Shown in pieces: positions 8,172 to 36,434 of a stretch of 64,000 bases of DNA. Each line of letters begins with the position of its first letter. Positions within the stretch are counted from its first letter, which is position 1. A program made the position numbers and the translations under genes. This DNA is from Rhodomicrobium lacus (lineage in GTDB: Bacteria; Pseudomonadota; Alphaproteobacteria; Rhizobiales; Rhodomicrobiaceae). Location of the stretch: assembly GCF_003992725.1 (NCBI RefSeq), contig NZ_RZNF01000012.1, positions 744,001 to 808,000 of the forward strand. The letters are read 5' to 3'. The notes beneath the pieces are model-generated. The model searched no databases. It saw only the letters and a program-made list of their open reading frames with translations, and was not told the DNA's origin.

Positions 8172-8194
8172 CAACCTATTAATGGTTTAGGTTG
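8172..8194. promoter_or_regulatory. Inverted repeat CAACC-N13-GGTTG upstream of flgB
   Basis: The arms CAACC (8172-8176) and GGTTG (8190-8194) are separated by 13 bases, and here the symmetry extends to seven bases (CAACCTA/TAGGTTG). It lies about 50 bp ahead of the flgB start. The same arm sequence and spacing recur upstream of four other flagellar or chemotaxis transcription units in the window, so I read it as a protein-binding site. The binding protein is unknown. Confidence 0.6.
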
Positions 8195-8223
8195 CATTTC
8201 TTGCCTGAAGCTGTTCACGCTCG

Positions 8224-8244
8224 GCTCATGGCTCAACCATGAGC
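8224..8244. other. Perfect 8-bp hairpin between flhB and flgB
   Basis: GCTCATGG (8224-8231) and CCATGAGC (8237-8244) form an 8-bp stem with a five-base loop in the 8163-8377 spacer. It lies downstream of flhB and upstream of the flgB promoter region. There is no T-run after it on the minus strand, so a transcription terminator is possible but unproven. Confidence 0.35.
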
Positions 8245-8377
8245 TAAATCGTTGAAAATTTTTAGATAATTTCTACTGCATGGGCGCTTGACGACTGGGG
8301 ATCGCCCCGGATGCGCGCGGCCGCAGCGCAAGCGACTGCCCCTCTCAGGGCTGGTGCATGCCTCGACCGAAAGGGCC

Positions 8378-9439
8378 TCAGCGCCCCTTTTTGTTGATGT
8401 AGATGATAACCTCGGCCACCGCCTTGTAGAATTCCGGCGGGATAGGCTGATCCACGCGCACAGCGTCATGCAGCGATTTTGCGAGGGCCTTGTTTTCCAC
8501 GACGGGAACGCCGTTGGCCTCCGCTATGCCGCGTATCCTCAGCGCGAGCTTGTTCTTGCCCTTGGCCAGCGTCTGCGGCGCCCGGTCCTGACCTCGAATA
8601 TAGCGAAGCGCGACAGCATAATGGGTGGGGTTGGCGATCACGACCGTCGCGTTCGGCACGTTCGACATCATGTTGCGTCGCAAGCGCGCCCGAGCGATCG
8701 AGCGCGCGCGCGCCTTCAGCATTGGGTCGCCCTCGGACTGCTTGTGCTCGTCCTTCAGATCCTGTCGGCTCATCTTGAGCTTGCGGAGCCATCTTAAGCG
8801 CGTCCAGAAAACGTCGGCAGCAGCCAACACGCCGCATGCAAATGCGCAGATGAGGACGGCCTTGAAGGCAAGCCGCTTGACCAGTTCGAGCGTATTGGCG
8901 GCGTCCGTCTGAAGCACGAGCAGAGCGGCGGCGCCCCCTTCGAATGCAATATAGAACGCAACCGCAATGATTGCGAATTTGAGCAAGCTTTTCAGAAGGT
9001 CAACGAGACCGTCAAAGCCGAGAAGCCGCTTCAGCCCCTGCTGGGGTGAAATCCTCGACAAATCGGGCTTGATCTTGTTGAATATCAGCGTCGGCGGGTT
9101 CTGGGCGAAGGATGCCACCAGTGTGGCCACCAGCAGCATGAGAACAAGCGGCCATACGAAATTGAGGATCGTCAGACCCGCGAGCTTCAGAATAAAAAAA
9201 GCGTCGGCCCCGTTTTCGAGGCTGAAACCGGAGGGGTCCTCGATGAAGACAGACAGATTTTTCGCGGCGTCGCCGAAAAACGCCGGTGCGACTGTCATCA
9301 GGAAAAGCACAAGGGCAAACAGCGCCGCCGCGGAGTTCACCTCACGTGAAGACGGGCCGCCTTCCTTTTCGAGGCTGTCGCGGAGACGCTTTTCGCTCGG
9401 CGGCTCTGTCTTGTTGTCTGTTTCAGAGCTATCTGCCAA
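8378..9439 (-). CDS. flhB: Flagellar export switch protein FlhB
   Basis: FlhB switches export substrate specificity from rod/hook to filament. The 353-residue product starts with the usual charged segment (KTEPPSEKRLRDSLEKEG), has four predicted membrane helices between about residues 36 and 210, and a cytoplasmic domain with the autocleavage motif NPTH at 270-273 followed by YAVALRY. Length is normal. It is last in a motA-fliN-flhB unit, with an 85-base gap after fliN. Confidence 0.96.
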   Translation of the reverse strand: MADSSETDNKTEPPSEKRLRDSLEKEGGPSSREVNSAAALFALVLFLMTVAPAFFGDAAKNLSVFIEDPSGFSLENGADAFFILKLAGLTILNFVWPLVLMLLVATLVASFAQNPPTLIFNKIKPDLSRISPQQGLKRLLGFDGLVDLLKSLLKFAIIAVAFYIAFEGGAAALLVLQTDAANTLELVKRLAFKAVLICAFACGVLAAADVFWTRLRWLRKLKMSRQDLKDEHKQSEGDPMLKARARSIARARLRRNMMSNVPNATVVIANPTHYAVALRYIRGQDRAPQTLAKGKNKLALRIRGIAEANGVPVVENKALAKSLHDAVRVDQPIPPEFYKAVAEVIIYINKKGR

Positions 9440-9524
9440 GAAACCGGCCTCCGCCCGTGGCGCGCCTCTTCAGCCCGAGGCGCATCGAGTTGAAGCGACA
9501 CCTGCTTAATGCCGGAACGCTGGT

Positions 9525-9887
9525 TTAGAGCTTTGTGTTGTCGATCATTTCGGTGAGAGTGACGCCGAAACGGGAGCCTTCCTCGTCGAGCACCACGATC
9601 TCGCCCTTTGCAATGATTCGTCCGTTGATCATCACATCGACAGGATCGCCGACCTTGCGATCGAGAGGAATGACTGCGCCTCTACCCAACTTGGTCACCT
9701 GATAGATCGGCATGGATGCAGAGCCCAGCAGAACCTTGAGGGAAAGCGGGATCCGCAACACCCTCTCAAGGCCGCCGGGATCGCTCGCCTTGCCGAGACC
9801 AATCAGGTTCATCGCCGTCTTGCTGACTTCCTCAGCGACGTCATTTCCAGCCGCGAGAGCCTCACCCAAGACCATTTCTTGCGTCAT
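9525..9887 (-). CDS. fliN: C-ring switch protein FliN
   Basis: FliN forms the base of the switch complex. The 120-residue frame from ATG 9887 (AAAGGG six bases upstream) has a short variable N-terminus and a C-terminal SpoA domain: VLRIPLSLKVLLGSASMPIYQVTKLGRGAVIPLDRKVGDPVDVMINGRIIAKGEIVVLDE. Upstream in-frame starts at 9902 and 9920 are less likely. The gene sits between motA and flhB, away from fliG-fliM. Confidence 0.94.
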   Translation of the reverse strand: MTQEMVLGEALAAGNDVAEEVSKTAMNLIGLGKASDPGGLERVLRIPLSLKVLLGSASMPIYQVTKLGRGAVIPLDRKVGDPVDVMINGRIIAKGEIVVLDEEGSRFGVTLTEMIDNTKL

Positions 9888-9928
9888 CGATATCCCTTTC
9901 ATTCGGTTGGTGTGAGACAAACGTCAGG

Positions 9929-10795
9929 TCACGCAGCCTTCGCCTCGGGCGCCGTCAGACTTTCCTCCACGCGATTGATGGTGGGGCGTTCATGGGCCGA
10001 GATCATTTTCCGCCCGTGTTCGACCGCGACCGAGGCCATCGCGCCATTCATGAAGGCAAGGAATGTCTGCTTTACGAGCATATAGAGGTGAAGCCGCTTT
10101 TCCCGAACGGTCTTGAGCTTTGTCGCGATGGGCGAAACCACCGCATACGATAGGAAGATACCGGCGAAAGTGCCAACCATGGCAGAGGCGATGAGCGCAC
10201 CCAGCACTTCCGGCGGCTTGTCGAGCGCCGCCATGGCCTTGATGACGCCGAGAACTGCCGCGACGATACCGAGAGCGGGAAACGCTTCCGAGACAGCATG
10301 GAGCGCATGGTAGGGCTTCAGGCCGTCGTGTCGGATGGTCTGGATTTCCTCGTCCATCAGCGCCTCGATTTCTGCGGGACGCGCGTTACCCATGATGTGG
10401 AGCCGTGCATAGTCGCAGATGAACTGCGTCAACTCCGGATTCGCCAGCACCTCGGGATATCTCGCGAAGATCGCCGACTTCGATGGATCATCAATGTGCT
10501 TCTCCACCTCACTTTTCGGCTTGTTCTTGAACTCCCGCATAAGCGCATAGAGAAACCCGAGAACAGCAAGGTATTCCGCTTCCTTGGGCTCGGAGTTCCT
10601 GAGCGCCTCCACGATACCTTTGCCCGTATCCTTGATAACCTTCATGGGATTTGCCACGATGAAGGTACCGATGGCTGCACCGCAGATGATCAGATACTCT
10701 GCAGGCTGCCAGATGACGGCCACATGACCGCCCATCCAGACGTAGCCGGCGAGCATGCAACCCAAGGTGACGAATAATCCAAGAGCGATGACCAC
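9929..10795 (-). CDS. motA: Flagellar motor stator protein MotA
   Basis: MotA is the membrane stator subunit that couples ion flow to torque. The 288-residue product has two N-terminal membrane helices ([37 protein letters not shown]), a large cytoplasmic loop with conserved charged residues, and two C-terminal helices ([46 protein letters not shown]). The start is GTG 10795, with AGGA upstream; no ATG is available. The start codon touches the candidate operator at 10795-10817. Confidence 0.95.
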
Positions 10796-10817
10796 AATCT
10801 TAATCCTATCTAGGTTG
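10795..10817. promoter_or_regulatory. Inverted repeat CAATC-N13-GGTTG at the motA start
   Basis: CAATC (10795-10799) and GGTTG (10813-10817) have the same 13-base spacing as the sites upstream of flgB, flgE and the che operon, with one mismatch in one arm. It abuts the motA GTG, which is closer to the start than at the other sites. Confidence 0.45.
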
Positions 10818-10859
10818 CATCATGAGTGAGTCGCTTGTGCGGGGCTGACCCTTCGTTCG

Positions 10860-11657
10860 CTATCGCCAGGAACCGCCAAGCGAAAGTCCCTGCACGCTGG
10901 AAAGAAGGTCGACGCCGATCGACACCACGCCGCCGCTGCTGGACGATGTTCCGAAGAGCGCATTGACGTAGTCGCTGGCGGTGTCGTTATTCTTGGCGTC
11001 ATACAGGGAGGCGAATTTTGCGATAAAGCTTGTCAGCTTCTGCGGATCCTGGAAGTCGCTGATATCGAGTGCCTTGGTAAGAAGCGCGGCCTGCCGGTCG
11101 ATATCCATCGCCGCCGTGTATTCGGAAAGACCGAGCGCGGTGTAGACCGTTGTAAGAAGCTTCTTGTCGGCCAGAATGTCGTAGACACTGTCGATCTTCG
11201 ATGCATTGCGATAGAAATAAAGCGCCAGCTGCGCGCCCTCGTTCGATTCGCCCTGCTTCTCTTCAAGCTTCTGAGCAATATACTGATCGACGACACCGGT
11301 CTGAACCGCCTCTGAAGTTGTGGTGGATGTGCCGTTTTCCTCGAAGTTGAAAGTCTTTGCTAGTTCAAGGGTTCCGAGGTTGCCAAGTTTGGCCCCCAAA
11401 CTTTTGCTGTCGGCCCCTTCGGACAGCACTTGCTTGTAAAGTGCCTTTGCGTAAACCTGATCTCCGAGGCCGTAGGCCGTAAGCGCATAGGAAAACAACT
11501 TGTAGTCGTTGACGAGTTCATCCGGGGACGTGACGCTGGCGATGTTGGCCTTGTAATATTCGGTCTGGCTCGCCACGGTAGGGTCAGCCGCCGTCAGTTC
11601 GATCCATTTGCTGTAGTTGTTCGTGATCGAAAGGAACGTTGTAAGCGTGGAAGTCAT
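10860..11657 (-). CDS. DUF1217 family flagellar-associated protein
   Basis: The 265-residue product matches the DUF1217 pattern: N-terminal TSTLTTFLSITNN, segments of the form YYKANIASVTSPDELVNDYKLFSYALTAYGLGD, repeated short helices, and a Ser/Gly-rich tail. Proteins of this family are found in flagellar loci of Hyphomicrobiales and Rhodobacterales and are thought to be structural or secreted; the exact role is unknown. AGGAGG lies eight bases before the ATG. It follows the soluble transducer gene by 12 bases and is probably the last gene of the che operon. Confidence 0.8.
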   Translation of the reverse strand: MTSTLTTFLSITNNYSKWIELTAADPTVASQTEYYKANIASVTSPDELVNDYKLFSYALTAYGLGDQVYAKALYKQVLSEGADSKSLGAKLGNLGTLELAKTFNFEENGTSTTTSEAVQTGVVDQYIAQKLEEKQGESNEGAQLALYFYRNASKIDSVYDILADKKLLTTVYTALGLSEYTAAMDIDRQAALLTKALDISDFQDPQKLTSFIAKFASLYDAKNNDTASDYVNALFGTSSSSGGVVSIGVDLLSSVQGLSLGGSWR

Positions 11658-11669
11658 GATGCAAGCCTC

Positions 11670-12767
11670 CTAAAAGAGCTGGACGTCGGCAAAGGTCTCG
11701 GCGGCTGGTTCCGTCGCGGTGCGTTCGATCGGGAGGCCGGTCGCATCGGCGAAGCGTTCGCGCATTTCGCTCAAGCTGAATGTCCCGGCGATCTCCTTGA
11801 GCAGAATCGTCGCGTGCGGAGGAGCGGCGGACATTCGCGTTTCGGCAAGCCCTTCCTTTACGAGGTCTGCGTTCCTGTCGGCGAGAAGAGCAAGCGCGCC
11901 GCAGATGTTCTGGATATGCTGGGTCACACGGTCCTGGAATTGGAGTTCCCTCACCGCGCAGGCAACCGCATCCTCAATGTAGCGCGACGAAACCCCGGTC
12001 GTGGAAAGACTGCTCGCAATTGCGGCGTTCTGATCGAGCAGCCGGTCGACCATGGCGCGAATGCGTTCCTGGGCCTTCTCCTTCTCGTGCGACATGTCGA
12101 TGGAAGAAATTTCCTTGAGCAGCAAATCACCGCGCTGAACTCCCACCGCAACCTCGGACATCTGGCGCTTGATGGTGTCCGACAGCGTGTTGACGCTGCG
12201 CGCGAGATCCCCGATCTCTGTCGCTACGACCACGAAGCCGCGCCCGGCGCTGCCCGCCCGCGCTGCCTCGATCTTCGCATTGAGCGAAAGCAGGTTCGTC
12301 CGCTTGTTGATTTTTTCGATCTGCGCCAGCGACTTCTGCATCGACTGCACTTTTTGCTGCACATCGTCGAGCGCTGAGACAAGGGCCGTAGCCCCCGATG
12401 ACAGGCGGATGATCTTTTCGAAGAGCTGGTTGAAGATCGAAGCGATGTTCGTTGCCAGTTCCGGAAGAGCGACGGTTGCCCCATTCAGTTCGATGGAGCT
12501 TTCAGCGTCGAGCATCTCCTGAACGGACTGGATCTGCCCCCGCGCTGTGGAGGCGATGTCCTGGAAGCGTCCGACGAGAGTTTGCACTGTCGTTTCGATG
12601 TCATGCGAGGTGTCGGACAGCTCACTGACCAGAGCTTTCAGCGACACACCCTGCACGGCGGCGGAGTCGAGCGCTTTTCGGAGGAAGCCGTCCTCGCGAT
12701 CGTCGCTGGCAGCTTCGAACGAGACAAGCGTGGCGGGGCTGGTGCCATGTGATGTCGAAAGGGTCAT
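11670..12767 (-). CDS. Cytoplasmic methyl-accepting chemotaxis-type protein
   Basis: The 365-residue protein has no membrane segment. Its centre is a transducer signalling hairpin, but with an altered tip: INKRTNLLSLNAKIEAARAGSAGRGFVVVATEIGDLA in place of the usual [17 protein letters not shown]. Long helices flank it (about residues 20-160 and 190-270), and the C-terminal 60 residues carry no recognised domain. Its ATG overlaps the cheB stop by four bases. A soluble receptor or an adaptor-like signalling protein is likely; ligand unknown. Confidence 0.8.
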   Translation of the reverse strand: MTLSTSHGTSPATLVSFEAASDDREDGFLRKALDSAAVQGVSLKALVSELSDTSHDIETTVQTLVGRFQDIASTARGQIQSVQEMLDAESSIELNGATVALPELATNIASIFNQLFEKIIRLSSGATALVSALDDVQQKVQSMQKSLAQIEKINKRTNLLSLNAKIEAARAGSAGRGFVVVATEIGDLARSVNTLSDTIKRQMSEVAVGVQRGDLLLKEISSIDMSHEKEKAQERIRAMVDRLLDQNAAIASSLSTTGVSSRYIEDAVACAVRELQFQDRVTQHIQNICGALALLADRNADLVKEGLAETRMSAAPPHATILLKEIAGTFSLSEMRERFADATGLPIERTATEPAAETFADVQLF

Positions 12768-13867
12768 TTCGCGTCTCTGCTGTTCGAGAAAATCTCATGA
12801 GAATGGCGAGAGGTGGCGGGCTTTCGACGGCCTTCGCCGCTCAAGAGCGCCATGATCTGCCCCGCCATATCGGCGAGCGCGATTTCGGCCTCGACCGCAC
12901 CGCGTTGGAAAGCAACTTTAGGCATGCCGTAAACGACGCAGCTCGCTTCATCCTGGCCGAGCGTACGGGCGCCGTTTGTACGCATGGCAAGCAGGCCGTC
13001 CGCGCCATCCCGGCCCATTCCCGTGAGAATTACGCCAATCGCCTTAGGCCCCGCCTGCTCCGCAGCGGAGAAAAACAAGGCGTCGACCGAGGGGCAGTGA
13101 CCGTTCACGCGGTCATTGCCTTCGACGATGCAGACATAGTTCGTCGCGGATCGCCTGATGCGCAGATGCGCGTGACCCGGAGCGATATAGGCGTGCCCTG
13201 GGAGCACCACATCGCCGCTCTGAGCCTCCTTCACTTTCACCGCGCAGACGTCGTCGAGCCGGCGTGCGAAGCTCGCTGTAAACTTGGGAGGCATATGCAG
13301 CGTGATGACGATGCCCGGGCTGTCTGCCGGCATCGCACGAAGGATATGGTTGAGGGCTTCCACGCCGCCGGTCGATGCCCCGATGGCGATGATTCTGTCG
13401 GGTGAGTAAGGGCCGCATCTGACCGCAGTCTTCGAGGGCAACGGCATCTGACGAACACGTGACCGAGCCGCCGCCTTCACTTTGGCGATGATTTCGGCCT
13501 GCCTCTCCGCGAGCCCGATCTGGAGCGCGCCGTCCGGCTTGGTCAGGAAGTCGACCGCTCCCAGTTCGAGCGCCCGAAGCGTTACGTCAGCCCCTTCGCG
13601 CGTGAGCGACGAGAACATCACAACGGGCATTGGGCGCAGCGACATGATCTTCTCAAGGAAGGCGATGCCATCCATGCGCGGCATTTCCACGTCGAGGGTG
13701 ATCACGTCGGGGTTCAGTTCCTTGATTTTTTCCCGCGCGGCGAAGGGATCGTTCACCGCGCCGATCACCTCGACTTCGGGATCGGAGGAAAGAATGCTCG
13801 TGATAAGCCGCCGCATCAGTGCGGAGTCATCGACGACAAGAACTCGTACGGGTTTGCGCTCGGCCAT
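12764..13867 (-). CDS. cheB: Chemotaxis protein-glutamate methylesterase CheB
   Basis: CheB removes methyl groups from receptors. The 367-residue product has a receiver domain (phospho-acceptor D59 in LDVEMPRMDG, K110) and a C-terminal methylesterase domain with the catalytic triad visible as S165 (GASTGG), H191 (TLHMP) and D287 (GMGRDGADG). The ATG at 13867 begins the family-type MAERKPVRVLVVDD; a longer upstream frame is antisense noise over cheD. It follows cheD by ten bases. Confidence 0.97.
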   Translation of the reverse strand: MAERKPVRVLVVDDSALMRRLITSILSSDPEVEVIGAVNDPFAAREKIKELNPDVITLDVEMPRMDGIAFLEKIMSLRPMPVVMFSSLTREGADVTLRALELGAVDFLTKPDGALQIGLAERQAEIIAKVKAAARSRVRQMPLPSKTAVRCGPYSPDRIIAIGASTGGVEALNHILRAMPADSPGIVITLHMPPKFTASFARRLDDVCAVKVKEAQSGDVVLPGHAYIAPGHAHLRIRRSATNYVCIVEGNDRVNGHCPSVDALFFSAAEQAGPKAIGVILTGMGRDGADGLLAMRTNGARTLGQDEASCVVYGMPKVAFQRGAVEAEIALADMAGQIMALLSGEGRRKPATSRHSHEIFSNSRDAK

Positions 13868-13877
13868 GAGTTCGCTC

Positions 13878-14489
13878 TCAGTCAAACAATTGAACATCGC
13901 CGCCGACCTGCTGACCTTCGAGGGTGATGCCGAACAGACGCTCCTCCTCGGCGACCTGCGCCTTCTGCGTGCCGCGCAAGAATAACCTTGCAACCTTGCC
14001 TGTATATGGGGTGTAGCAAATCCAGCGACCGAGAACGCCGCCGAGGTCGCTTGCCGCCAAATGCAACGCTTCATCCTTCACGTAACGACGCGCGAAACTC
14101 GCGTTCTTGTCGCCGATCAACGTCGCGCCGAAGAAATTCGCCCCACCGAACAGCTTGACCTCGAGTCTGGAGCGGTGAGCGCCTGCTTTCAGAACCTTGT
14201 TGATCAGTTCCTCCATCGCGAAGTTCCCGTAGCGGTTGGCCCCGCTCAGCATATCGCCCCACTGGCCTGTCTCGCTTTCGGGGAGCATGAAGTGGTTCAT
14301 GCCGCCGATGCCCGTTTTCACGTCGCGAACGCAGGCGGAGACGCAGGAGCCAAGAACAGTGACGATGGATTCATCCTTGTCGGCCGCGACATAGGTCTCG
14401 CCCGGCAGGATCCGGACCGCATGCGTGCCAAGCCGATGAACGAAGACCCTCGATCGCGGAGGGGAAACGGAGCGCCTGAGTGCTGTCAT
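13878..14489 (-). CDS. cheD: Chemoreceptor glutamine deamidase CheD
   Basis: CheD deamidates receptor glutamines. The 203-residue product has the catalytic cysteine C49 in VTVLGSCVSACVRD and histidine H66 in GGMNHFMLP, plus the KLFGGANFF segment. The start ATG at 14489 overlaps the cheR stop (ATGA); a much longer frame upstream is spurious. The C-terminal tail ends in DVQLFD. Confidence 0.95.
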   Translation of the reverse strand: MTALRRSVSPPRSRVFVHRLGTHAVRILPGETYVAADKDESIVTVLGSCVSACVRDVKTGIGGMNHFMLPESETGQWGDMLSGANRYGNFAMEELINKVLKAGAHRSRLEVKLFGGANFFGATLIGDKNASFARRYVKDEALHLAASDLGGVLGRWICYTPYTGKVARLFLRGTQKAQVAEEERLFGITLEGQQVGGDVQLFD

Positions 14490-15376
14490 TGTCCGATCTT
14501 TCGATAGACGGTGCGTCCGCAGAGTTTGAAGCGCGCCTGGTGGTCGAGCAGCGATTCGGAATGGCCGACGAACAGCCAGCCGCCCTCCTTGAGTTGCGCA
14601 TGAAACCGCTCGATGAGCGCAGCCTTTGTTGCAGCATCGAAGTAGATCATCACGTTCCGGCAGAAGATCGCGTCGAATTTCCCATGGAAAGGCCACGGAC
14701 TCAGCAAATTGAGCTGCCTTATGGACACGAGATCCTGGATGTTGCGCCGAACCTGAACCGTGTTGCGATCTTCGGGACGCCGTTCGAAGAATGTCTCGCG
14801 CATCGCAGCCGGAACATTTTCGAGGCACGCCCGCGGATAAATGCCCGCCCTTGCCTTCTTCACCACGTTCGTGTCGAGATCCGTGGCGAGCACGCGCAAA
14901 TCCCAATCGGCCATTGCCTCGCGCTGAAGCGCGGCTGCGACCATGGCGATGGAATAGGGTTCCTCACCGGTCGAACAACCGGCGGACCAAAGGCGGATGT
15001 GTGAACGCTCGCCGTTTCGGCGCTGCGCCCCTGGCGCGAGCACGTGCTCCTTCAGAAAATCGAAGTGATGTGCTTCACGGAAGAATTTTGTGAGATTCGT
15101 CGTGATGGCGTCTATGAGGAAGCTGGCCTCGCCGTCACCTTCCCTGCTTTCCAGGAGCGCGCAATAATCCCGGAAAGAGCGCAGTCCCAGCGCGCGGAGA
15201 CGCCGCGAAAGCCGCGAATATGTCATGTCGCGCTTGTGCGCGTTAAGGACGATGCCGCTTCGCTTGTAAACGATGCCGACGATAGTTTGGAAATCGGCCG
15301 CCGTGAACGGAAACTCTGTGGCGGCGGAGGAGGAACTCGTGTTTCCCCGTTCCATTGGCTCGACTCTTACTCGCAT
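14486..15376 (-). CDS. cheR: Chemotaxis protein methyltransferase CheR
   Basis: CheR methylates receptor glutamates with S-adenosylmethionine. The 296-residue product has the N-terminal helical domain, then the SAM-binding segment WSAGCSTGEEPYS (130-142), VLATDLDTNVVKKARAGIY, and FDAIFCRNVMIYFD near the end. The start is ATG 15376 or ATG 15355; neither has a strong ribosome binding site. It lies 136 bases after the PAS transducer gene, which encodes a matching C-terminal tether. Confidence 0.95.
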   Translation of the reverse strand: MRVRVEPMERGNTSSSSAATEFPFTAADFQTIVGIVYKRSGIVLNAHKRDMTYSRLSRRLRALGLRSFRDYCALLESREGDGEASFLIDAITTNLTKFFREAHHFDFLKEHVLAPGAQRRNGERSHIRLWSAGCSTGEEPYSIAMVAAALQREAMADWDLRVLATDLDTNVVKKARAGIYPRACLENVPAAMRETFFERRPEDRNTVQVRRNIQDLVSIRQLNLLSPWPFHGKFDAIFCRNVMIYFDAATKAALIERFHAQLKEGGWLFVGHSESLLDHQARFKLCGRTVYRKIGQ

Positions 15377-15512
15377 GGCACTATCTGTCTTTTGGAGGCT
15401 GATGCCGCTTCAGGTCGGCTGGATATCGATCTGTTTCGAAGGAGAGCCGGGGGGGTATCTCGCCCCCGACACTCGGGCGGTGGCGGGCTTTCAGGCCCGT
15501 CGCTGGCGACGA

Positions 15513-17864: not shown

Positions 17865-18375
17865 CTTCCATCTCCCGTAGCTGCTCCACTTCGTCTCGCT
17901 GGAAGAGGTGTTCGAGCGAAAGGACGACCACCATCGTTCCCTCGACGGACACGATGCCGGAGAGAAATTCCGCGACGGCGCCTCGATCCATTTCCGGAAC
18001 AGGCCGTATCTCCGAAGTCTCGATCGTCAGGATGTCGGATACGGCGTCCACAAGGAGGCCCACGGTCCGTTCGCGAATCGCGACGATGATGACGATTTTC
18101 GACTTGGCCGCTTCCGTAGCACCGGTCCCGAACCGCAGTTTCAGATCGTAAACCGGGATGATCGTGCCTCTGAGGTTCATGACGCCGAGAACGTAGTCCG
18201 GCTGATTTGGCAGTGCAGTGGTGCCGCTCCACCCTCGGATTTCCCGGACAGCGGTGATGTCGATGGCGTATTCCTCGCCGCCGATGGAAAAACTGATGAA
18301 TTGATGCGCTGCGTCGGCGCCCAATGATCTGTCTACTGATTTTTGTCTCGGGACTGCGAGTGCCGCTTCGGTCAT
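17848..18375 (-). CDS. cheW: Chemotaxis coupling protein CheW
   Basis: CheW couples receptors to CheA. The 175-residue product shows the two-subdomain CheW fold: [43 protein letters not shown], and [14 protein letters not shown] near the C-terminus. An N-terminal extension of about 25 residues is variable. It follows cheA by 30 bases and overlaps the transducer gene by 17 bases. Confidence 0.95.
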
Positions 18376-18405
18376 GTTCGTTCTCTCTGCAACGGTATTC
18401 GGGAT

Positions 18406-20523: not shown

Positions 20524-20535
20524 CTGAGCCTCGCG

Positions 20536-21291: not shown

Positions 21292-21314
21292 CAACCGACT
21301 GATATCTTCGGTTG
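21292..21314. promoter_or_regulatory. Inverted repeat CAACC-N13-GGTTG upstream of the che operon
   Basis: CAACC (21292-21296) and GGTTG (21310-21314) are separated by 13 bases, and the symmetry extends to CAACCGA/TCGGTTG. It matches the sites upstream of flgB and flgE in arms and spacing. A run ttatttttt follows on the plus strand, so a terminator reading is also possible, but no gene upstream on that strand would use it. It could serve both the che operon and fliG. Confidence 0.55.
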
Positions 21315-22639: not shown

Positions 22640-22653
22640 TTATTGGAGATCGC

Positions 22654-23592: not shown

Positions 23593-23688
23593 AGCTTTTA
23601 GCCCGATTCCGACATTTGCATCCGTTCGCAGCACGCTTGGGAGCAAATGCCGGAATCAAAAGGACCACGGCAACACCATGATTCTGGT

Positions 23689-23756: not shown

Positions 23757-23772
23757 AACGGGCGCTCCGCGA

Positions 23773-24610: not shown

Positions 24611-24638
24611 ATGGCCCTCCTTCAAAATGAATATTTGG

Positions 24639-25528: not shown

Positions 25529-25531
25529 GGG

Positions 25532-28389: not shown

Positions 28390-28430
28390 GTTCGATCTCC
28401 GTGATAAGTTTAGAGAAAGCGGCTATCGGT

Positions 28431-28697
28431 TCAGAAGCCGTGCTCGATACGCGAATAAGCTTGCTCGGAAATCCCGAGCAACACGCTTCCGATGAACGAC
28501 GCCGTCATCATGGCCACCACGAAGACGGCCACGATTTTCGGGATGAACGTCAGCGTCGCTTCCTGGATCTGGGTCAGCGCCTGAAACAGCGAGATGGCGA
28601 TCCCGACCGCCATCGCCGCACCAATCATCGGTCCGCTAGCCATGATAACGGCCCAGATGGCTGACCTCACGAGATCCATGGCATCTGCCTGATTCAT
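28431..28697 (-). CDS. fliQ: Flagellar export gate protein FliQ
   Basis: An 88-residue protein with two membrane helices separated by the conserved FQALTQIQEATLTFIPK turn, the hallmark of FliQ. It starts five bases after flgD and precedes flhA by 41 bases. Full length for the family. Confidence 0.95.
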   Translation of the reverse strand: MNQADAMDLVRSAIWAVIMASGPMIGAAMAVGIAISLFQALTQIQEATLTFIPKIVAVFVVAMMTASFIGSVLLGISEQAYSRIEHGF

Positions 28698-28702
28698 GGG
28701 CG

Positions 28703-29113
28703 CTACGAGATCACGACGCCGGAAGCCAACTCTATGGTGCTCCCATCGGCAAGGGTTGCAACTGAGCCCGAGGAGTTGATTTCAATCGACTTGATAACCC
28801 CGGAGACTGTGCCGTCCGCCGAAGTCACCGTCTTTCCGATGAGCGAAGCGCCCTGCGAAATCGCGTTTTGCGTCAGCAGCGTATCCAACCGCGAGTTCGC
28901 GTTGACGAGTTGTTCGACCGACGAGAACGACGCCAGTTGCGAGATGAACTGTGTCGGGTCCGTTGGGTCTGTCGGATCCTGGTTTTGAAGCTGCGCGACA
29001 AGCAATTGAAGAAAACTGTTATAGTCCAGCGTACTTGTTTTACTTGTTGAGCTGGTTGACGTTGATTCGTTCGACGTGGTCGCTGTGGACGAAGTGGTTG
29101 CCGGAACTGACAT
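28703..29113 (-). CDS. flgD: Hook capping protein FlgD
   Basis: FlgD caps the growing hook. The 136-residue product has a Ser/Thr-rich N-terminus, then the conserved LDYNSFLQLLVAQLQNQDPTDPTDPTQFISQLASFSSVEQLVNANSRLDTLL block and a C-terminal GKTV...DGTVSGVIKSIEI region. This is the short alphaproteobacterial form. Its first 74 bases overlap the end of flbT in another frame; AGGGA lies ahead of the ATG. Confidence 0.93.
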   Translation of the reverse strand: MSVPATTSSTATTSNESTSTSSTSKTSTLDYNSFLQLLVAQLQNQDPTDPTDPTQFISQLASFSSVEQLVNANSRLDTLLTQNAISQGASLIGKTVTSADGTVSGVIKSIEINSSGSVATLADGSTIELASGVVIS

Positions 29114-29519
29114 TTCTTTGTTTCCCTGCGTCTTTGATCTTGCCTTGGAGACACTCGGCCACGAAGGGCCTCAGAACTTTCAACGCATCGAAATACCGGC
29201 CGCCATCGACCAGTTGCTCGACCTGATCCAGGGCGGCAGCCAATTCGTGAGACGCACCGACACCCAACTCCAATATCATCTCGACAACGGATTTTTTGAC
29301 GCTGTCCGCGCTTTTCGGCTCGATCAGCATCGCCTGAATCAAAAAATACAGCTGACGGACCGGGGTTGTCGCTCGCTCCGCCTGCATGACATAAGCTTCC
29401 AGCAGGAACGCGACATCGTTGAGAAACTCGACCGAAACCTTCCGGTCAGCCCGCAAGACCGCGCCGTTGATGAATATCCGTTCGCCCGGCTTCAGACTGA
29501 CAGAAAAAGGGCGGCTCAT
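29040..29519 (-). CDS. flbT: Flagellin post-transcriptional regulator FlbT
   Basis: FlbT binds the 5' leader of flagellin mRNA and controls its stability and translation in alphaproteobacteria. The 159-residue product has the family start (LKPGERIFINGAVLRADRKVSVEFLNDVAFLLEAYVMQAERATTPVRQLYFLIQAML) and a central helical region. The last 25 residues run through the flgD start region in a different frame. It overlaps flaF by ATGA. Confidence 0.93.
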   Translation of the reverse strand: MSRPFSVSLKPGERIFINGAVLRADRKVSVEFLNDVAFLLEAYVMQAERATTPVRQLYFLIQAMLIEPKSADSVKKSVVEMILELGVGASHELAAALDQVEQLVDGGRYFDALKVLRPFVAECLQGKIKDAGKQRNVSSGNHFVHSDHVERINVNQLNK

Positions 29520-29863
29520 TTGAGACCTTCTGCTACGGAACGAGAGACATCGATGATGAAGCCGAAATCGTTGCTCCGACCGCGTCGGATCGCCTCGATG
29601 CGGCGGAGCACAGCGATACCGATCGAAATCAGATCCGCGCGAAGCTTGTTCGGCAGCCTGCTTTCCGGCGATCCCAGTTGCTCAATGAAGAAGACCCAAA
29701 GTCGCTTTGTGTAGAGAAGGGCTTCGATTGCTTCTGCAGATCGCGGGCCTGCCTCGACACCTCGCTGCAGAAGCTCTATCGAGCGCAGGATCGCCCCGTG
29801 CTCGGTCCCACGTGCTGTTCTGACATCTGTCGCCAGCACTTCCTGATACGGCGAATGATACAT
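29516..29863 (-). CDS. flaF: Flagellar biosynthesis regulator FlaF
   Basis: FlaF works with FlbT and flagellin, in Caulobacter as a secretion chaperone or positive regulator. The 115-residue product from ATG 29863 (MYHSPYQEV) has ESPxxAEAIEALLYTKRLWVFFIEQL- and LRADLISIGIAVLRRIEAI-type segments diagnostic of FlaF. A longer frame to 30022 lies in the flgL coding region and is rejected. It follows flgL by 20 bases. Confidence 0.9.
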   Translation of the reverse strand: MYHSPYQEVLATDVRTARGTEHGAILRSIELLQRGVEAGPRSAEAIEALLYTKRLWVFFIEQLGSPESRLPNKLRADLISIGIAVLRRIEAIRRGRSNDFGFIIDVSRSVAEGLK

Positions 29864-29883
29864 CGTTGAAGTCCCGGCCTTGT

Positions 29884-30921
29884 TTAGGCGCTGATATAAC
29901 TGACGAGCGACAGGCTGTAGATCCGATTGGTGAGTGCGTATGACGTGTCGAGAAGCGTTTGAAGCTGGGCGAGCTTCGTCGATGCCTCGGTCGGGTCTGA
30001 GTCGCCCAGCTCGCTCGACCAATTGTCGACCAGCTTCTTTTCCGTGGTGAGCCGTTCGTTCGTCGATGTGATCTGGGATTGCGACACGCCGAGCGTGGAT
30101 TGCATGCCGCTGATGCCCGCCATCGCGCTGTTCACCTTGTCAAGCGCTGCGGCGATAACCGTTTGCTGCGTTCCCGTATTCAGATTGTCGAGCCCGAGGT
30201 CCGAGATCATCGTGTAGGCTTCGGCGAGCTGACGGAATGCTTCTTCATTCGCGGAAACGGACGTCGTTACCGTTTGCCCATCGGAGATCCGGGCGGTTCC
30301 CCTCGTCGACGAGGCGTTGGACCAATTGCTCGACCACGACGCATCGTCGAACAGCGCGGAAAAATCGCCGGACAGGAAAGATGTCATGTCGGCGGGTGTT
30401 ATCGAACTCGCCGAAGAGTCGGACTGCGTCATGCCGAAAGCCGTAGAAAAGGCGCTCGCGGTCGCGGCCTTTGCCGAGTCCGAATAATCGTTCAAAGGCG
30501 TAGCTCCGGTGTTGGAGCCGCCAAAAACATAAGCGCCTGCTGTGGCGGCATTCAGGGAGGTGATGAGGGATTCCAGCATTCCCTTCGCCTGCGCCGAGAG
30601 CGCACTTACATCCCCGGTGCTCTTCGCGGACAAGAGGGCGTTGCTGAGCTCTTCGGCATCGCTGTAGATCGACGTGAGTGCCGTGGTCGAGGTCGATATC
30701 TTGTTCAGCACAACCGAGTTTGCGGTGATTGTACTCGTCAGGCTCGTCGATTTTGCCTGAAGAGATCGATAGAGCCCATATTGGCTTCCAAGACTGGATA
30801 CGGGATCCGAGATCTTTCCGCTTGAGGTCTCGGTCGTAATCTTCGCGATTTTTGCCTGGGCGTCCGCAACTGCGTTGGGCGCAATTGAATAGAGGACTGA
30901 AGTAGAAACTGTGCTTACCAT
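29884..30921 (-). CDS. flgL: Hook-filament junction protein FlgL
   Basis: The 345-residue product resembles flagellin-family junction proteins: N-terminal D0-like helix with KITTETSSGKISDPVSSLGSQYGLYRSLQAK, VLNKISTSTTALTSIYSDAEELSNALL, and C-terminal SQSQITSTNERLTTEKKLVDNWSSELGDSDPTEASTKLAQLQTLLDTSYALTNRIYSLSLVSYI. Its place after flgK fixes it as FlgL. GGAGG lies eight bases upstream of the ATG. Confidence 0.9.
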   Translation of the reverse strand: MVSTVSTSVLYSIAPNAVADAQAKIAKITTETSSGKISDPVSSLGSQYGLYRSLQAKSTSLTSTITANSVVLNKISTSTTALTSIYSDAEELSNALLSAKSTGDVSALSAQAKGMLESLITSLNAATAGAYVFGGSNTGATPLNDYSDSAKAATASAFSTAFGMTQSDSSASSITPADMTSFLSGDFSALFDDASWSSNWSNASSTRGTARISDGQTVTTSVSANEEAFRQLAEAYTMISDLGLDNLNTGTQQTVIAAALDKVNSAMAGISGMQSTLGVSQSQITSTNERLTTEKKLVDNWSSELGDSDPTEASTKLAQLQTLLDTSYALTNRIYSLSLVSYISA

Positions 30922-30935
30922 GGTTCGTCCTCCGG

Positions 30936-32399
30936 CTAGATCGCGTTGAGAAGATCGGAAAACATCTGATCGACAGCAGAGACCAGCTTCGCGGCGGCGC
31001 CATACGACTGTTCAAGCGCGAGCATTTTCGAAAGCTCTGTATCGATGTTCACTCCCGTCGCATTCGAAAGCGCGGTGGCAGCGGTGCTTTTCACGGTGGC
31101 GCTGTAGGCGGCCGTGGACGATGCAGCTTGCGACTTGACACCGAGCCACGAGGCTGAGGCAGCAGCATAATCAGCAAGACTGAGAGAAGTTCCGGCGCCG
31201 GCAACGGGGTCGAAAGCCTGGGCGGTTTTAAGGCCGCTGACCAGCTCATTCAGACGATCCGTGTATCCGGTTTCGCCTGGATTCGGATTGTATACATAAG
31301 GATCGGCGCCATTGGTCGAGATGCCGCCATCTCTCAGGAGGGTCGGTGTGGCGACAACCGAAGCCGCGACCGATATCCTTGACGCAAGCCCCTCGGAAAC
31401 CGTTCCGGAGGTTGGGACGACAAGGCTTCCGGCGTCGGTGAACAGGCCAGCCTGCGGCGAACCCGTGCCACCACTTTGATCGGTTTCCTGGAAAGCGGTG
31501 ATCAGGCCGCGCGCGATCTCGTCGAGCTGGTCCTGATAGGTGACGGCGAGATCGTCCCTCACCTCTACGAGCCCGGCGAGGCGCCCGCTCTTGATTTCGT
31601 AAGAGGCACCCGAAGTGGTGACGGGCACGCCGTCGACATAGACGGCGTTCCCCTGCGTGGAGGCCGTAAATGTGGTCTTGGCCTCGAAGGTGACAGAGCG
31701 GGCCGTCTTGTCGAACAGCGTCACGCCGCTGTCGGTGTAGATGGCCATGTCGTTGTTTGAGCGCGTCACCGTGGAGATGCCGATCTCGGCGCTCAGGCTT
31801 TGCAGGATACTATCCCGCTCGTCGAGCGCATCGGTTATGTCCGCACCGGCGACCGTTCCCTTGACAATCGTTTCGTTGACAGCCTGGAACCGCGTCAGGA
31901 GATTGTTGATGGTCGAGACAGAATCGCCGATCGCGGCGTCAGCATCCGCGCGCACTTGCTGCACGGTATCGGCGGCGCTGTTGAGCGCGCCGGCGAGATC
32001 GCTCGCAGCCTGCACGGCGTCTACGGACGCCTGGGATTCAGGCGAGGCAGCATATGTCGACAGCGCATCCGACAAAGCTGCGATCAGAGCGGTTGGCGAC
32101 GTGGTATCATCGACGGTGGTTGCGCCAACCGTGCTCTGAAGCTGCGTGAGCGCGTCCGAAACCGCTCCGTCGCGCGCGTCGTCGGCATTTGCAGTCAACA
32201 AGCTCTTCAGAGCGGCCGCATTTGTAACGCGCGTAATGGAGACGACCGACGGCAAGCCGTTGATCGTGACCACATTCGCGAGCTTGCGACTCGCTCCGTC
32301 CGTCTGCTGATTCGCCACATTGCGCGCAACGACGGCGGTTTGAGAGGAGGCGACGGAAACGCCCGCGGAGGCTGTATTCAGCGCAGAGGTCAGCGACAT
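30936..32399 (-). CDS. flgK: Hook-associated protein FlgK
   Basis: FlgK is the first hook-filament junction protein. The 487-residue product has the rod/hook N-terminal motif (ALNTASAGVSVASSQTAVVARNVANQQTDGASRK), a long middle region with LDERDSILQSLSAEIGISTVTRSNNDMAIYTDSGVTLFD, and the conserved C-terminus GVNIDTELSKMLALEQSYGAAAKLVSAVDQMFSDLLNAI. It lies 11 bases after flgE. Length is typical for alphaproteobacteria. Confidence 0.95.
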   Translation of the reverse strand: MSLTSALNTASAGVSVASSQTAVVARNVANQQTDGASRKLANVVTINGLPSVVSITRVTNAAALKSLLTANADDARDGAVSDALTQLQSTVGATTVDDTTSPTALIAALSDALSTYAASPESQASVDAVQAASDLAGALNSAADTVQQVRADADAAIGDSVSTINNLLTRFQAVNETIVKGTVAGADITDALDERDSILQSLSAEIGISTVTRSNNDMAIYTDSGVTLFDKTARSVTFEAKTTFTASTQGNAVYVDGVPVTTSGASYEIKSGRLAGLVEVRDDLAVTYQDQLDEIARGLITAFQETDQSGGTGSPQAGLFTDAGSLVVPTSGTVSEGLASRISVAASVVATPTLLRDGGISTNGADPYVYNPNPGETGYTDRLNELVSGLKTAQAFDPVAGAGTSLSLADYAAASASWLGVKSQAASSTAAYSATVKSTAATALSNATGVNIDTELSKMLALEQSYGAAAKLVSAVDQMFSDLLNAI

Positions 32400-32410
32400 C
32401 GGTCAGCCCC

Positions 32411-33652
32411 CTAGGTATTCAGATTGACGAGAACTTTCAGAAGGTCGGACCCCGTCTGAAAGACCTTGGCATTGGACTGATAGATGTTCTGGGACTGGAT
32501 CATTCGCGTCAGTTCCGTCGCAAGATCGACGTCCGAATTCTCAAGCGTATAGTCGCTGATCGTCCCAAAGCCATTCGTTCCAGCGATGCCGATCTGAACG
32601 CTGCCCGATTCCTGATTGGGCAGATAGGCGTTGCCGCTGATGACGGTCATGTTGTCGGGACTGGCGACGGTTGCGAGCGGGATGGTGTAAGCGGCGACCG
32701 TCGATCCGTTTTCATAAACGACCGACAGCGTACCGTCAGACGAAATCTCGACCGACTTCACCGCGCTCGCCGCGTTGCCGTTCACGTCCGCCGAAAACGT
32801 GTAGGCGGAATCGAGCTGCGTCGATTTCGAAATATCGAGCGTCAGAGTGCCGCCGTTGGGCACCGGAACCGAAAGGCTCGTTGGCGTAGAGAGCGCGTAT
32901 GTCGTGGAGTCGAACGTCAAGGTTTCGGTGACAAGCGCGGCGCTCGAATAGGGAAAGCCGCCATTGGTGGCGTCAGCCTGATTGTAGACGGATACTTCCC
33001 ACTCATTGTCGGCCGTCTTCGTGTAATAGACGTCGAGATTGACCGAGGAGCCGGCATTGTTGTAGGCGGTGAAAGAGGTTTTTTGCGTATAGGTCGCATC
33101 TGCCGCGTTGTTGGAAGGCAGCTTGGTCGTATCCGTGACTGCCGTCGCGCCTATGGGCAGATTGAAAGTGACGACACCTTCCGTCGAGGGGACCGCCTTC
33201 ATCGCAAGGTCGCCGACGTTTACCACTTCGAGGCCCGCATAGCTGTTTGCAGACGGCGTCGTACCAACGGGATACCCAAGAAGCGTATATCCTGCCGCGT
33301 TTTGCAGAGTGCCGTCAGCCTGCTCCACAAATGCGCCCGCGCGCGTCAGAACCGGGGTGCCGCTCGGGCCCGACACGATGAAGAAGCCGTTCCCGTTCAC
33401 GGCCAGGTCCGTCGCACTGGTCGTCGATGTCGTGGTGGATTTGCCGCTGATCGCCGTGCGCACATCGGTATCCACGCCGCCCGACTGATAATCTCCGGAT
33501 CCGCTGCTCGTCACGAGGGTCGAGAACTCTGTCGACGAGCGCTTGTATCCCGTTGTGCTCACATTGGCGATGTTGTCCGCCACTGTGCTTAGAGCCGTCG
33601 ACTGGGCGGCCATGCCCGCTGCACTGGTGTTAATTAGTCCGTAAAGGCTCAT
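32411..33652 (-). CDS. flgE: Flagellar hook protein FlgE
   Basis: The hook subunit, 413 residues from ATG 33652 (MSLYGLINTSAAGMAAQ). The N-terminal motif VADNIANVSTTGYKRSSTEFSTLV, the TDLAVNGNGFFIVSGPSGTPVLTRAG block, a Thr/Asn-rich variable middle, and the C-terminus LENSDVDLATELTRMIQSQNIYQSNAKVFQTGSDLLKVLVNL are clear. A six-residue upstream extension to 33670 would overlap the candidate operator. First gene of a 13-gene run. Confidence 0.95.
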   Translation of the reverse strand: MSLYGLINTSAAGMAAQSTALSTVADNIANVSTTGYKRSSTEFSTLVTSSGSGDYQSGGVDTDVRTAISGKSTTTSTTSATDLAVNGNGFFIVSGPSGTPVLTRAGAFVEQADGTLQNAAGYTLLGYPVGTTPSANSYAGLEVVNVGDLAMKAVPSTEGVVTFNLPIGATAVTDTTKLPSNNAADATYTQKTSFTAYNNAGSSVNLDVYYTKTADNEWEVSVYNQADATNGGFPYSSAALVTETLTFDSTTYALSTPTSLSVPVPNGGTLTLDISKSTQLDSAYTFSADVNGNAASAVKSVEISSDGTLSVVYENGSTVAAYTIPLATVASPDNMTVISGNAYLPNQESGSVQIGIAGTNGFGTISDYTLENSDVDLATELTRMIQSQNIYQSNAKVFQTGSDLLKVLVNLNT

Positions 33653-33667
33653 TGCGAATCGCTCCCC

Positions 33668-33690
33668 CAACCTATGCGCCTAATTGGTTG
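33668..33690. promoter_or_regulatory. Inverted repeat CAACC-N13-GGTTG upstream of flgE
   Basis: CAACC (33668-33672) and GGTTG (33686-33690) are perfect complements with the same 13-base spacing as upstream of flgB and the che operon. It starts 16 bases ahead of the flgE ATG and would control the flgE-to-FliL-like operon. Confidence 0.55.
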
Positions 33691-33760
33691 TAGGCTCCTT
33701 AGCTTGTGCGGACCTTGGATCGAAGGGTGAACAGCGCCGACTTCGAAAACGCTACGACAG

Positions 33761-35137
33761 TCAGGAAGCGCGCAGCATCAGGCGCAGCATGTCATCCAGC
33801 GCTTCGCCGGGCCGAAGGTCTTCGGCGCTTTGCGTCAGATAGCGGTATACGGCGGGAACGAGACGGACAGCCTTGTCGAGTTCGGCGTCGTTGTTCGGCT
33901 TGTGGCCGGCAATCATCCGAATATCTCGGGTCTCCTCGAACCTCGAAATGAGCCCCTTGAGTTCCCGCACCGCAGACTTCTGGTTCGGCGTCCAGACGCG
34001 GGGAGCAAGACGCGAAACCGAGCCCAGAACGTCGACCGCCGGAAATCTCCCCTGATCCGCGATGGCGCGGTCGAGCACAATGTGGCCGTCGAGTATGCCG
34101 CGCAGCGTATCCGCCACCGGATCATTATGGTCGTCGCCGTCCACGAGGACCGAGAAGACGCCCGTTATCGATCCTGGGCCACTCGCGTTGCCGGCCCTTT
34201 CAAGCAGCTTCGGCAGGTCCGTGAAGACGCTTGGCGGATACCCCCGAGAGACAGGAGGTTCTCCCGCTGACAATGCGATTTCTCTCACTGCGTGCGCATA
34301 GCGGGTGACGGAATCGAACACGAGAAGCACCCGCTGTCCTTCATCGCGGAAATATTCCGCCACGGCGAAGGCTGTTTTCGCAGCCAAGCGCCGCATCATC
34401 GGGCTTTCATCGCTCGTGGAAACGACAAGAACGGCCTTGGCCATTCCGTCCTTGGTCAGGGTGTCGTCGATGAATTCCCTGACCTCTCGCCCACGCTCGC
34501 CGATGGCGGCAAAGACGGTCACGTCGAAGGAACTGCCGCGCGTCAACATGGACAGAAGCGTCGATTTTCCGACGCCCGATCCGGCGAAAATCCCGATCCT
34601 CTGGCCGGCACAGAGAGGCGTGAAGACATCGATGACGCGCACGCTCGTAAGTACGGGCTCGCTGACACGCTGTCGCTCGAGAGCGAGCGGCGGCGCCTGA
34701 TCGACTGGAATGAGACGCGCCCCGCGCCCCAGGGCCGGGCCGTTGTCGATGACGCGGCCAAGCGCATCGATCACGCGGCCTTTCCAGGTCTCGTTCGGGC
34801 GAAGCTTCAGCGTCGAAGCAAGCCTGACCGGGGCGCCGAGAAAAGGCTGATGACGCTCTTCAATGGTGCGCACCAGAATCGTATCGCGCTCCACCCGTAG
34901 CGTTTCGGCGAGGGCATCGCCTTCGTCGGTCGCAATGGACACCCAATCGCCGAGCTTCGTGAACTTCGACAGCCCATCGACGCGGATATGTTCCGTCGAA
35001 AGCTCCACGACCTTGCCGCTCACAACAGCGAGCCGATCGTCGAGAGCAGCCTCGAAGGCTTCGGCGAGAGTTGTGAGAGCGGTGCGACCGAAGCGCGGCA
35101 GAACGCCGTCAAAATCGCGATGCGGCTGTTCAACCAT
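33761..35137 (-). CDS. fliI: Flagellum-specific ATPase FliI
   Basis: FliI powers substrate entry into the export apparatus. The 458-residue product has the Walker A motif GIFAGSGVGKST (182-193), the F1-type segments RGREVREFIDD and TSDESPMMRR, Walker B-like VLLVFDSVTRYAHAVRE, and SRGYPPSVFTDLPKLLERAG. Length is normal. It follows flgF with a one-base overlap; its end is near the flgE promoter. Confidence 0.97.
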   Translation of the reverse strand: MVEQPHRDFDGVLPRFGRTALTTLAEAFEAALDDRLAVVSGKVVELSTEHIRVDGLSKFTKLGDWVSIATDEGDALAETLRVERDTILVRTIEERHQPFLGAPVRLASTLKLRPNETWKGRVIDALGRVIDNGPALGRGARLIPVDQAPPLALERQRVSEPVLTSVRVIDVFTPLCAGQRIGIFAGSGVGKSTLLSMLTRGSSFDVTVFAAIGERGREVREFIDDTLTKDGMAKAVLVVSTSDESPMMRRLAAKTAFAVAEYFRDEGQRVLLVFDSVTRYAHAVREIALSAGEPPVSRGYPPSVFTDLPKLLERAGNASGPGSITGVFSVLVDGDDHNDPVADTLRGILDGHIVLDRAIADQGRFPAVDVLGSVSRLAPRVWTPNQKSAVRELKGLISRFEETRDIRMIAGHKPNNDAELDKAVRLVPAVYRYLTQSAEDLRPGEALDDMLRLMLRAS

Positions 35138-35862
35138 CAGGAAGTCGGCGACCCGAGCGCTTGAATCGCGGATTTCAAGCCCGATTCGACAGACTGGATC
35201 GTCGATGCCGCCTCATCGAATGCGCGTTGCACATAAATGAGTCTGGCCGTCTCCTTGATCGCGTTTACGTTCGATTCCTCGACATAGCCCGATGCTATGT
35301 TGCTCTTCGCCGGGTCTGTCGCGGCGATGGCTGGCTTGTCGGAGACGAAGCCGCCTTCGACCCGCGAAAGCTTCGCGTCGGAGCCGAACACGAACACGCC
35401 GATCATGCCTATGCGTTCGTTATTCTGCGTAATCGTGCCGTCCTCGGCGATCTGCGGCGTCGGACCGTTGGGATCGACCTGCAATGGCGCGCCGCCAGCA
35501 TCGAGCACCGGATCGCCCCGCATCGAAACCAGCATGCCGCTCGTCGTCATCTGCATGCGACCGTCTCGGGTGTACATCCTGCCAGCGGGAGTCTGGACGG
35601 AAAGCCAGCCTTGCCCTTTGAGGGCGACGTCAAGCGGATTGCCCGTCTTGACCAACCCGCCTGCGCCAAGGCTGACGACGCTGTCTTTTGACGTAACGAA
35701 AGCTGTCATCTGCGCATCGGCAGCCGACAGAACGCTATCGAACTTCATTTCAGTGCCCCGATAGCCAACGGTATTGGCGTTCGCCACGTTCTGGGCAACG
35801 GTATCCAGGCGTTTCTGAAGCGCCACCTGAGCGGAAAGCGCTACATAGAGCGACGACTGCAT
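35137..35862 (-). CDS. flgF: Proximal rod protein FlgF
   Basis: FlgF is a proximal rod subunit. The 241-residue product has the N-terminal motif LYVALSAQVALQKRLDTVAQNVANANTVGYRGTEMKF, the central LDVALKGQGWLSVQTPAGRMYTRDGRMQMTTSGMLVSMRGDPVL block, and C-terminal SGYVEESNVNAIKETARLIYVQRAFDEAASTIQSVE. GGAG precedes the ATG. It is between cheY2 and fliI. Confidence 0.95.
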   Translation of the reverse strand: MQSSLYVALSAQVALQKRLDTVAQNVANANTVGYRGTEMKFDSVLSAADAQMTAFVTSKDSVVSLGAGGLVKTGNPLDVALKGQGWLSVQTPAGRMYTRDGRMQMTTSGMLVSMRGDPVLDAGGAPLQVDPNGPTPQIAEDGTITQNNERIGMIGVFVFGSDAKLSRVEGGFVSDKPAIAATDPAKSNIASGYVEESNVNAIKETARLIYVQRAFDEAASTIQSVESGLKSAIQALGSPTS

Positions 35863-35934
35863 AAACGTCTCCGGTGGGGCGTGCTGAAAGATGCGGGGAT
35901 GGGAGCAGGAGACACCGGGCGGGCCGGTGTAGCG

Positions 35935-36330
35935 TCAGGCGGCGGCGGCTTTTGCGACAGCAAGCGCCTTGTCGATCTTCTCCTTGAGTACGGGAGCGCT
36001 GAACGGCTTCACGAGATATTCGTTCGCGCCCGCTTCCTTTGCCGCCGCGACGTTGTCCGCTCGCGATTCTGCCGTCACCAGGATGAAAGGGATCTGCGCC
36101 GTCGCCGCGTTCGAGCGAACATAGCGGAGCAAATCGTAGCCTGACATCGGCTCCATGTTCCAGTCGGAGATGATCAGGCCATAGGAATTCTTCTGTATCA
36201 GCTCCAGCGCCATTCCGCCGTTGGACGCCTCATCGACATCATCGTAGCCGATTTGCTTCAGCAACTTGCGAACTATTCTGACCATAGTGCTGTAATCGTC
36301 TACGACCAGAATCTTTAAACCGGCTGTCAT
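35935..36330 (-). CDS. CheY-like response regulator
   Basis: A 131-residue single receiver domain with DD (11-12), phospho-acceptor D56 in IISDWNMEPMSGYDLL, a Thr in VTAES and Lys in LVKPF. The motif SDWNMEPMSG is the CheY form that binds the motor in many bacteria. The ATG at 36330 has AGGAG eight bases upstream; a frame to 36363 is not needed. It heads the unit with flgF and fliI, so it may be the motor-facing CheY. Confidence 0.93.
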   Translation of the reverse strand: MTAGLKILVVDDYSTMVRIVRKLLKQIGYDDVDEASNGGMALELIQKNSYGLIISDWNMEPMSGYDLLRYVRSNAATAQIPFILVTAESRADNVAAAKEAGANEYLVKPFSAPVLKEKIDKALAVAKAAAA

Positions 36331-36411
36331 TGTGTCGTCTCCTGCTCGCGGGCGGGCGCCCAATCTTTTTCCATTCTTGCTGAAAAAGCTTATGCGAGAC
36401 TATCCGCGCTA

Positions 36412-36434
36412 CAACCTGACTGCTATTTTGATTG
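36412..36434. promoter_or_regulatory. Inverted repeat CAACC-N13-GATTG upstream of cheY2-flgF-fliI
   Basis: CAACC (36412-36416) and GATTG (36430-36434) have the common 13-base spacing with one mismatch. It overlaps the last codons of the transglycosylase gene and lies 82 bases ahead of the cheY2 start. Confidence 0.45.

Follow-up and report, generated by a model that had tools for sequence, protein, structure and literature searches.

An operator-like, clade-specific palindrome shared by flagellar, chemotaxis and some surface genes of Rhodomicrobium lacus

Several flagellar and chemotaxis promoters of R. lacus, together with some surface genes, carry a genuine clade-specific palindrome, CAACC-N13-GGTTG, which resembles an operator and is most likely recognized by one dimeric regulator. 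The explanation that we favour, with moderate confidence, is that this 23-bp repeat is the operator of a single dimeric transcription factor that represses motility and balances swimming against surface life. A shared flagellar and surface operator of this kind would provide one DNA bait with which a regulator of swimming versus attachment could be isolated, and it would let the gene set of that regulator be read from genomes in a poorly studied branch of the Hyphomicrobiales.

Palindrome sites in the cluster and their conservation in the genus

The window, i.e. the whole analysed stretch of 64,000 nucleotides, contains Pfam matches to FliP, FlgH, FlgI, a second FlgE/F/G-type rod protein, FlhB, MotA, CheB, CheR, MCPs, two CheA-like proteins, FliG, FliM, export proteins of the FliR and FlhA families, FlbT, flagellin-type proteins, FlgE, a FliI-like ATPase and FliF, a domain content that supports its reading as a flagellar and chemotaxis cluster. 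The single Rfam match is a tRNA gene (63081-63153, plus strand). All five sites of the original prediction were recovered, on the minus strand: exact copies upstream of flgB (8172..8194), of the STAS gene that opens the che operon (21292..21314) and of flgE (33668..33690), and copies with one mismatch upstream of motA (10795..10817) and cheY2 (36412..36434). The distance from the palindrome to the start codon is 48 nt at flgB, 98 nt at the STAS gene, 15 nt at flgE and 81 nt at cheY2, where the starts of flgB, flgE and cheY2 are internal ATGs picked over longer ORFs. At motA the distance is zero, the final base of the palindrome being the G of GTG. Four other matches with at most one mismatch lie in the called flgH ORF (3423), in an MCP gene (12149), in cheB (13991) and upstream of fliG (21578). 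The last of these, 25 nt 5' of the fliG start and with a left arm that falls on a GCGCAAG stretch, was left uncounted.

The original prediction had staked the motif on a density above that of the genome at large and on conservation in related genomes, and both were found. With at most one mismatch, the window holds nine matches; 100 shuffles averaged 1.43 and never exceeded five, and the genome as a whole has about 1.6 per 64 kb. In the whole genome (3.88 Mb) there are 96 such matches versus 40 for the reversed pattern, so that much of the one-mismatch signal is background. Exact copies number ten versus four for the reversed control, and the corresponding counts are 9 versus 1 and 7 versus 0 in two genomes of the same genus, 4 versus 1 in G004 and 5 versus 1 in G003. 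The window, at 1.65% of the genome, holds three of the ten exact copies (binomial P = 0.0005). Nine of the ten lie outside called ORFs, as judged by a GC-based caller of our own. In the relatives this caller labelled the flgB copy of G001 and the che copy of G002 as coding, which we ascribe to overlong starts, and it placed seven more exact copies of G001, G002 and G004 within genes. The longest ORF of the C7 chemoreceptor begins 7 bases inside the palindrome. An extended pattern, TRCAAYC-N13-GRTTGYA, was refined after the fact, and its counts are partly circular because it was derived from the sites that it then scored; with at most one mismatch, four of its eight matches in this genome are within genes, including cheB.

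Relatives detected via FlgE were mostly Hyphomicrobiales, and the FlgE proteins of G001 and G002 are 87 and 88% identical to that of this genome (G000). The five sites were picked in this genome, and positions in the relatives were located through arm matches followed by promoter alignment, except that the che site in G002 was placed from the exact match alone; the motA comparison comprises one relative. In these alignments the arms are retained and the inner bases vary: over the five sites, 48 of 50 arm columns are identical versus 36 of 65 inner columns (Fisher P = 3e-7). Higher conservation figures, which include sites found via the exact match, were left out of this P value. Arms are identical in 10/10 columns at flgB, che and flgE (three genomes each) and at motA (two genomes), and in 8/10 at cheY2 (three genomes), to which both lost arm columns belong; site support is strong at flgB, motA, che and flgE and weaker at cheY2. 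When the frame was shifted over 27 positions, the zero shift scored highest (48), its neighbours scored 44-46, and scores of 26-30 were reached at positions 5-9 downstream or 9-13 upstream. The arm and inner-base counts, together with the drop in score on every frame shift, support the palindrome as a putative protein-bound operator.

Conserved arms and spacing with free inner bases, as in a palindromic operator, were thus observed, in line with the earlier suggestion of a site for a dimeric protein; that suggestion is weaker for cheY2 and does not extend to fliF, where the weak match that had been proposed (42932) has GGCTG in place of its GGTTG arm in G001 and G002. Of two further weak matches, the one at 46084 retains the arm GGTTGTA and the one at 46252 the arm GGTTGCA in three genomes, in neither case with the second arm. 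In G003, of the same genus, the comparison covered motA and flgE; motA had no good match and flgE had one with two mismatches.

Conservation of the arms stops at the genus. Exact copies of the extended palindrome occur in 17 of 397 genomes of the order, with five hits in the five genomes of the genus, 15 in the 392 others, and three for the control over all 397. On these counts the motif seems to belong to one clade. The distant hits that were inspected (ten with short flanks and six with longer ones) include one in a Tad pilus-like locus, two at comM-like genes (one of them just within a called ORF) and three further ones in called ORFs; hits in distant genera are too few for an argument. One exact extended palindrome from another family (L275:9075-9097) lies about 105 nt 5' of genes that by eye resemble csgF-csgG curli genes.

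Could the matches have arisen by chance? One-mismatch matches are common genome-wide, as the 96 copies attest, and four of the nine window matches lie outside the set first proposed. Against this, conservation peaks at zero shift, copies are placed outside genes, and three genomes hold more copies of the motif than of its reversed control. We therefore regard chance as a very improbable explanation.

Position relative to predicted flagellar promoter elements

Of 80 flgE loci from the order (L101-L180), 74 have CAGYYYCRCGCAAG upstream with at most two mismatches (59 exact), versus 13 of 1600 shuffled upstream regions, and TANNNT is conserved ten bases past it, giving the promoter-like element CAGYYYCRCGCAAG-N10-TANNNT. 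The element is unlike the published FtcR motif and matches no other motif that we could name. A matrix scan of the window, controlled with five single-strand shuffles (best score 9.1), placed elements on the minus strand at flgB (CAGCTTCAGGCAAG, 8200..8213; 17.3, the best of the window), flgE (33703..33716; 10.3), motA (10834..10847; 9.1, equal to the best shuffle, and conserved in G001), cheY2 (36389..36402; 8.6, under the best shuffle, and unchanged in G001 and G002) and fliF (42972-42985; 8.2). An unrelated match at 62178 scores 9.8. By score the flgB and flgE elements stand out, and the others are identified by position and conservation. Immediately upstream of the flgB element lies a further inverted repeat, CTCATGG-TTGAG-CCATGAG (8225-8243, minus strand), which is not retained in G001 or G002.

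The palindrome starts 5, 12 and 16 nt past the CAAG of the element at flgB, flgE and motA, respectively. At these three promoters it overlies the predicted -10 region and start rather than lying upstream of them, the starts themselves being predicted. At cheY2 the layout is reversed, with the palindrome 9 nt upstream of the promoter element. No element was seen at che, the surface-protein gene or ldtR, so that the core-promoter layout is limited to three sites. That the palindrome covers the predicted core of these three promoters points to repression. Varying offsets are tolerable for a repressor and usually not for an activator, from which we infer that the regulator probably acts as a repressor at flagellar promoters. 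One dimeric factor would bind a sequence close to TRCAAYC-N13-GRTTGYA at all sites, and at flgB, motA and flgE the bound protein would cover the -10 region and the start and thereby block RNA polymerase.

The opposite possibility is that the promoter element has been misplaced and that an activator, such as one of the LuxR/NarL type, binds the palindrome. DegU, a NarL-family inducer of flagellar genes, recognizes inverted repeats (PMC9263151), and there are seven GerE-domain matches in G000. The offsets of 5, 12 and 16 nt speak against an activator, as does the position of the site at motA and flgE, where it abuts or nears the start codon and leaves no space for a downstream promoter. Five of the seven GerE genes had their flanks scanned, and no palindrome was found near them. 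Overall we consider an activator unlikely, while giving it more weight than any other rival. VisN/VisR are encoded by a tandem pair of LuxR-type genes; any two of the GerE matches in G000 are at least 2.9 kb apart. LuxR-LuxI quorum sensing was set aside as a candidate, no match with up to two mismatches being present near those genes within a 19-kb stretch.

Copies beyond the motility promoters

The original prediction placed the palindrome at the heads of flagellar and chemotaxis units. This stands for the five motility sites, but the motif is also found at a surface-protein gene, at ldtR and near other envelope genes. The surface-protein gene has an exact copy, roughly 300 bp ahead of it, in four of the five genomes of the genus (G000, G001, G002 and G004); its product is a repetitive, secreted-looking protein of 536 aa, free of Pfam matches and trimeric-autotransporter-like by eye. 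Upstream of ldtR the palindrome is exact in this genome and in G004 (two of five), and one arm is lost in G001 and G002. FlgE was not detected in G004, which keeps the palindromes at both of these genes. The C7 chemoreceptor (987 aa; MCPsignal, HAMP) has an exact copy in this genome and copies with two mismatches in G001 and G002. Two further exact copies in this genome lie about 500 bp 5' of the gene for a YadA_anchor protein (26.7 bits, cut-off 22.7) and about 170 bp 5' of an outer-membrane beta-barrel gene. One-mismatch copies are located about 215 bp 5' of the gene for a 1234-aa repetitive protein on C6, whose sole Pfam match is below the cut-off, and, just left of the window, between two genes adjoining fimbrial chaperone and usher genes. 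A copy conserved in G001 and G002 has a Poly_export/Wzz operon as its neighbour, about 250 bp off, in G002, and a transposase gene there in G001; given that transposase gene and the greater conservation of the opposite flank, its target is uncertain. Judged from neighbours viewed by eye, the common theme appears to be swimming and the cell surface.

Two observations concern the surroundings of these copies. About 100 bp upstream of the surface-protein palindrome (L003, L091, L098, L236) stands TTAA-N7-TTAA, complete by eye in some of the loci, which resembles a CtrA box. Beside the flagellar cluster, left of the window (L043:3766-9033), there is a fimbrial operon with usher, PapD-type chaperone and SCPU-domain genes.

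The distance at the surface-protein gene also bears on whether the palindrome might instead act in RNA, as a 5' leader hairpin controlling translation. Folding is stronger than in shuffles for the leaders of flgB and che (z -4.3 and -3.2), and the site meets the ribosome-binding region at motA and flgE. However, no clear advantage over shuffles is seen for the motA, flgE and cheY2 leaders (z 0.8, -1.2 and -0.7), a stem-breaking mismatch at motA is retained in G001, and a copy some 300 bp ahead of its gene does not fit. With a clear folding excess in two of five leaders, we rejected the hairpin, which seems to us quite improbable.

If the palindrome is instead a DNA operator, its copies ahead of the surface-protein gene and of ldtR would fit a factor that sets the balance between swimming and surface life. 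Counted against the operator reading are the 8/10 arms of cheY2, the in-gene matches of the extended pattern, the loss of an ldtR arm, and the mismatches at the C7 chemoreceptor and in G003. It is tempting to speculate further that a genus-specific motile-to-sessile switch, whose regulator might be one of the paralogues at the left edge of the window, sits on ancestral flagellar promoter cores and on the regions that control ldtR, surface-protein and polysaccharide genes, and persists in species that have lost the flagellum. In this full form the idea is doubtful, and we offer it as such.

Candidate regulators and known systems

MogR of Listeria is a comparable case, a repressor on flagellar promoters, but its sites are AT-rich and the bacterium is unrelated. 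RtrC of Caulobacter recognizes a pseudo-palindrome in many promoters, influences both adhesion and flagellar motility, and represses where its site overlaps the -10/-35 region (PMC9648850). In all these respects it resembles the regulator proposed here; the difference is that RtrC is reportedly confined for the most part to Caulobacterales and Rhodospirillales. FtcR and Rem act on flagellar promoters within the same order, but the published FtcR motif, TGTGGGCA (118 of 363 peaks), is no spaced palindrome and is by eye dissimilar to the present site (PMC9456535). A rem-like ORF lies upstream of flgE in L150, L123 and L102. In a search that covered mainly open-access literature we recognized no published motif that matches the palindrome, which falls short of proving that none exists.

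LdtR, a MarR-family protein, is a candidate regulator by virtue of the palindrome at its own gene (exact in G000 and G004) and its reported role. In Liberibacter it is reported to be linked to cell motility and cell-wall genes, with a regulon that spans motility and the cell envelope, and the position of its site is tied to repression or activation (PMC5481520, PMC3999280). G000 has one LdtR-like protein, whose score on the NCBIfam LdtR model is 245.8 bits, just below the cut-off of 250. The site published in the same reports, ATATTCCTTGTATTTTAA, counts against the candidate, being by eye unlike the palindrome, and G001 and G002 have lost one ldtR arm despite LdtR proteins 99% identical to that of this genome. 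LdtR thus seems an improbable regulator, though not to the degree of the hairpin or of chance.

No gene could be assigned as the regulator of the palindrome. The statement of the original prediction that the window holds no regulator gene is unproven, since two paralogous genes are found at the left edge. One, a weak candidate (735-1295, minus strand), is restricted to the genus and borders the flagellar cluster on its left, with homologues 87-88% identical at the same cluster end in G001 and G002. The second ends at about 120 (window 1-120), and the pair is also recorded at L249:5567-6121 and 6733-7296; the family is present in five of nine genomes, all of the same genus. By eye, one of the two paralogues is XRE-like at its C-terminus, while neither has a Pfam match and a PDB sequence search with the XRE-like one returned nothing. 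The model of the 735-1295 protein, built from seven sequences, has a mean pLDDT of 69, and none of its 55 matches in the PDB reaches E <= 0.001, the small HTH proteins 2ef8, 2cro and 3vk0 being among the weak ones (E 1.4 to 5.4). DUF6456, a domain first considered for a possible link to RtrC, is absent from G000-G004, and this says nothing on RtrC itself. Between the two paralogous genes, at 134-791 of the window, a unit of about 164 nt is present four times in tandem, with imperfect agreement between the copies.
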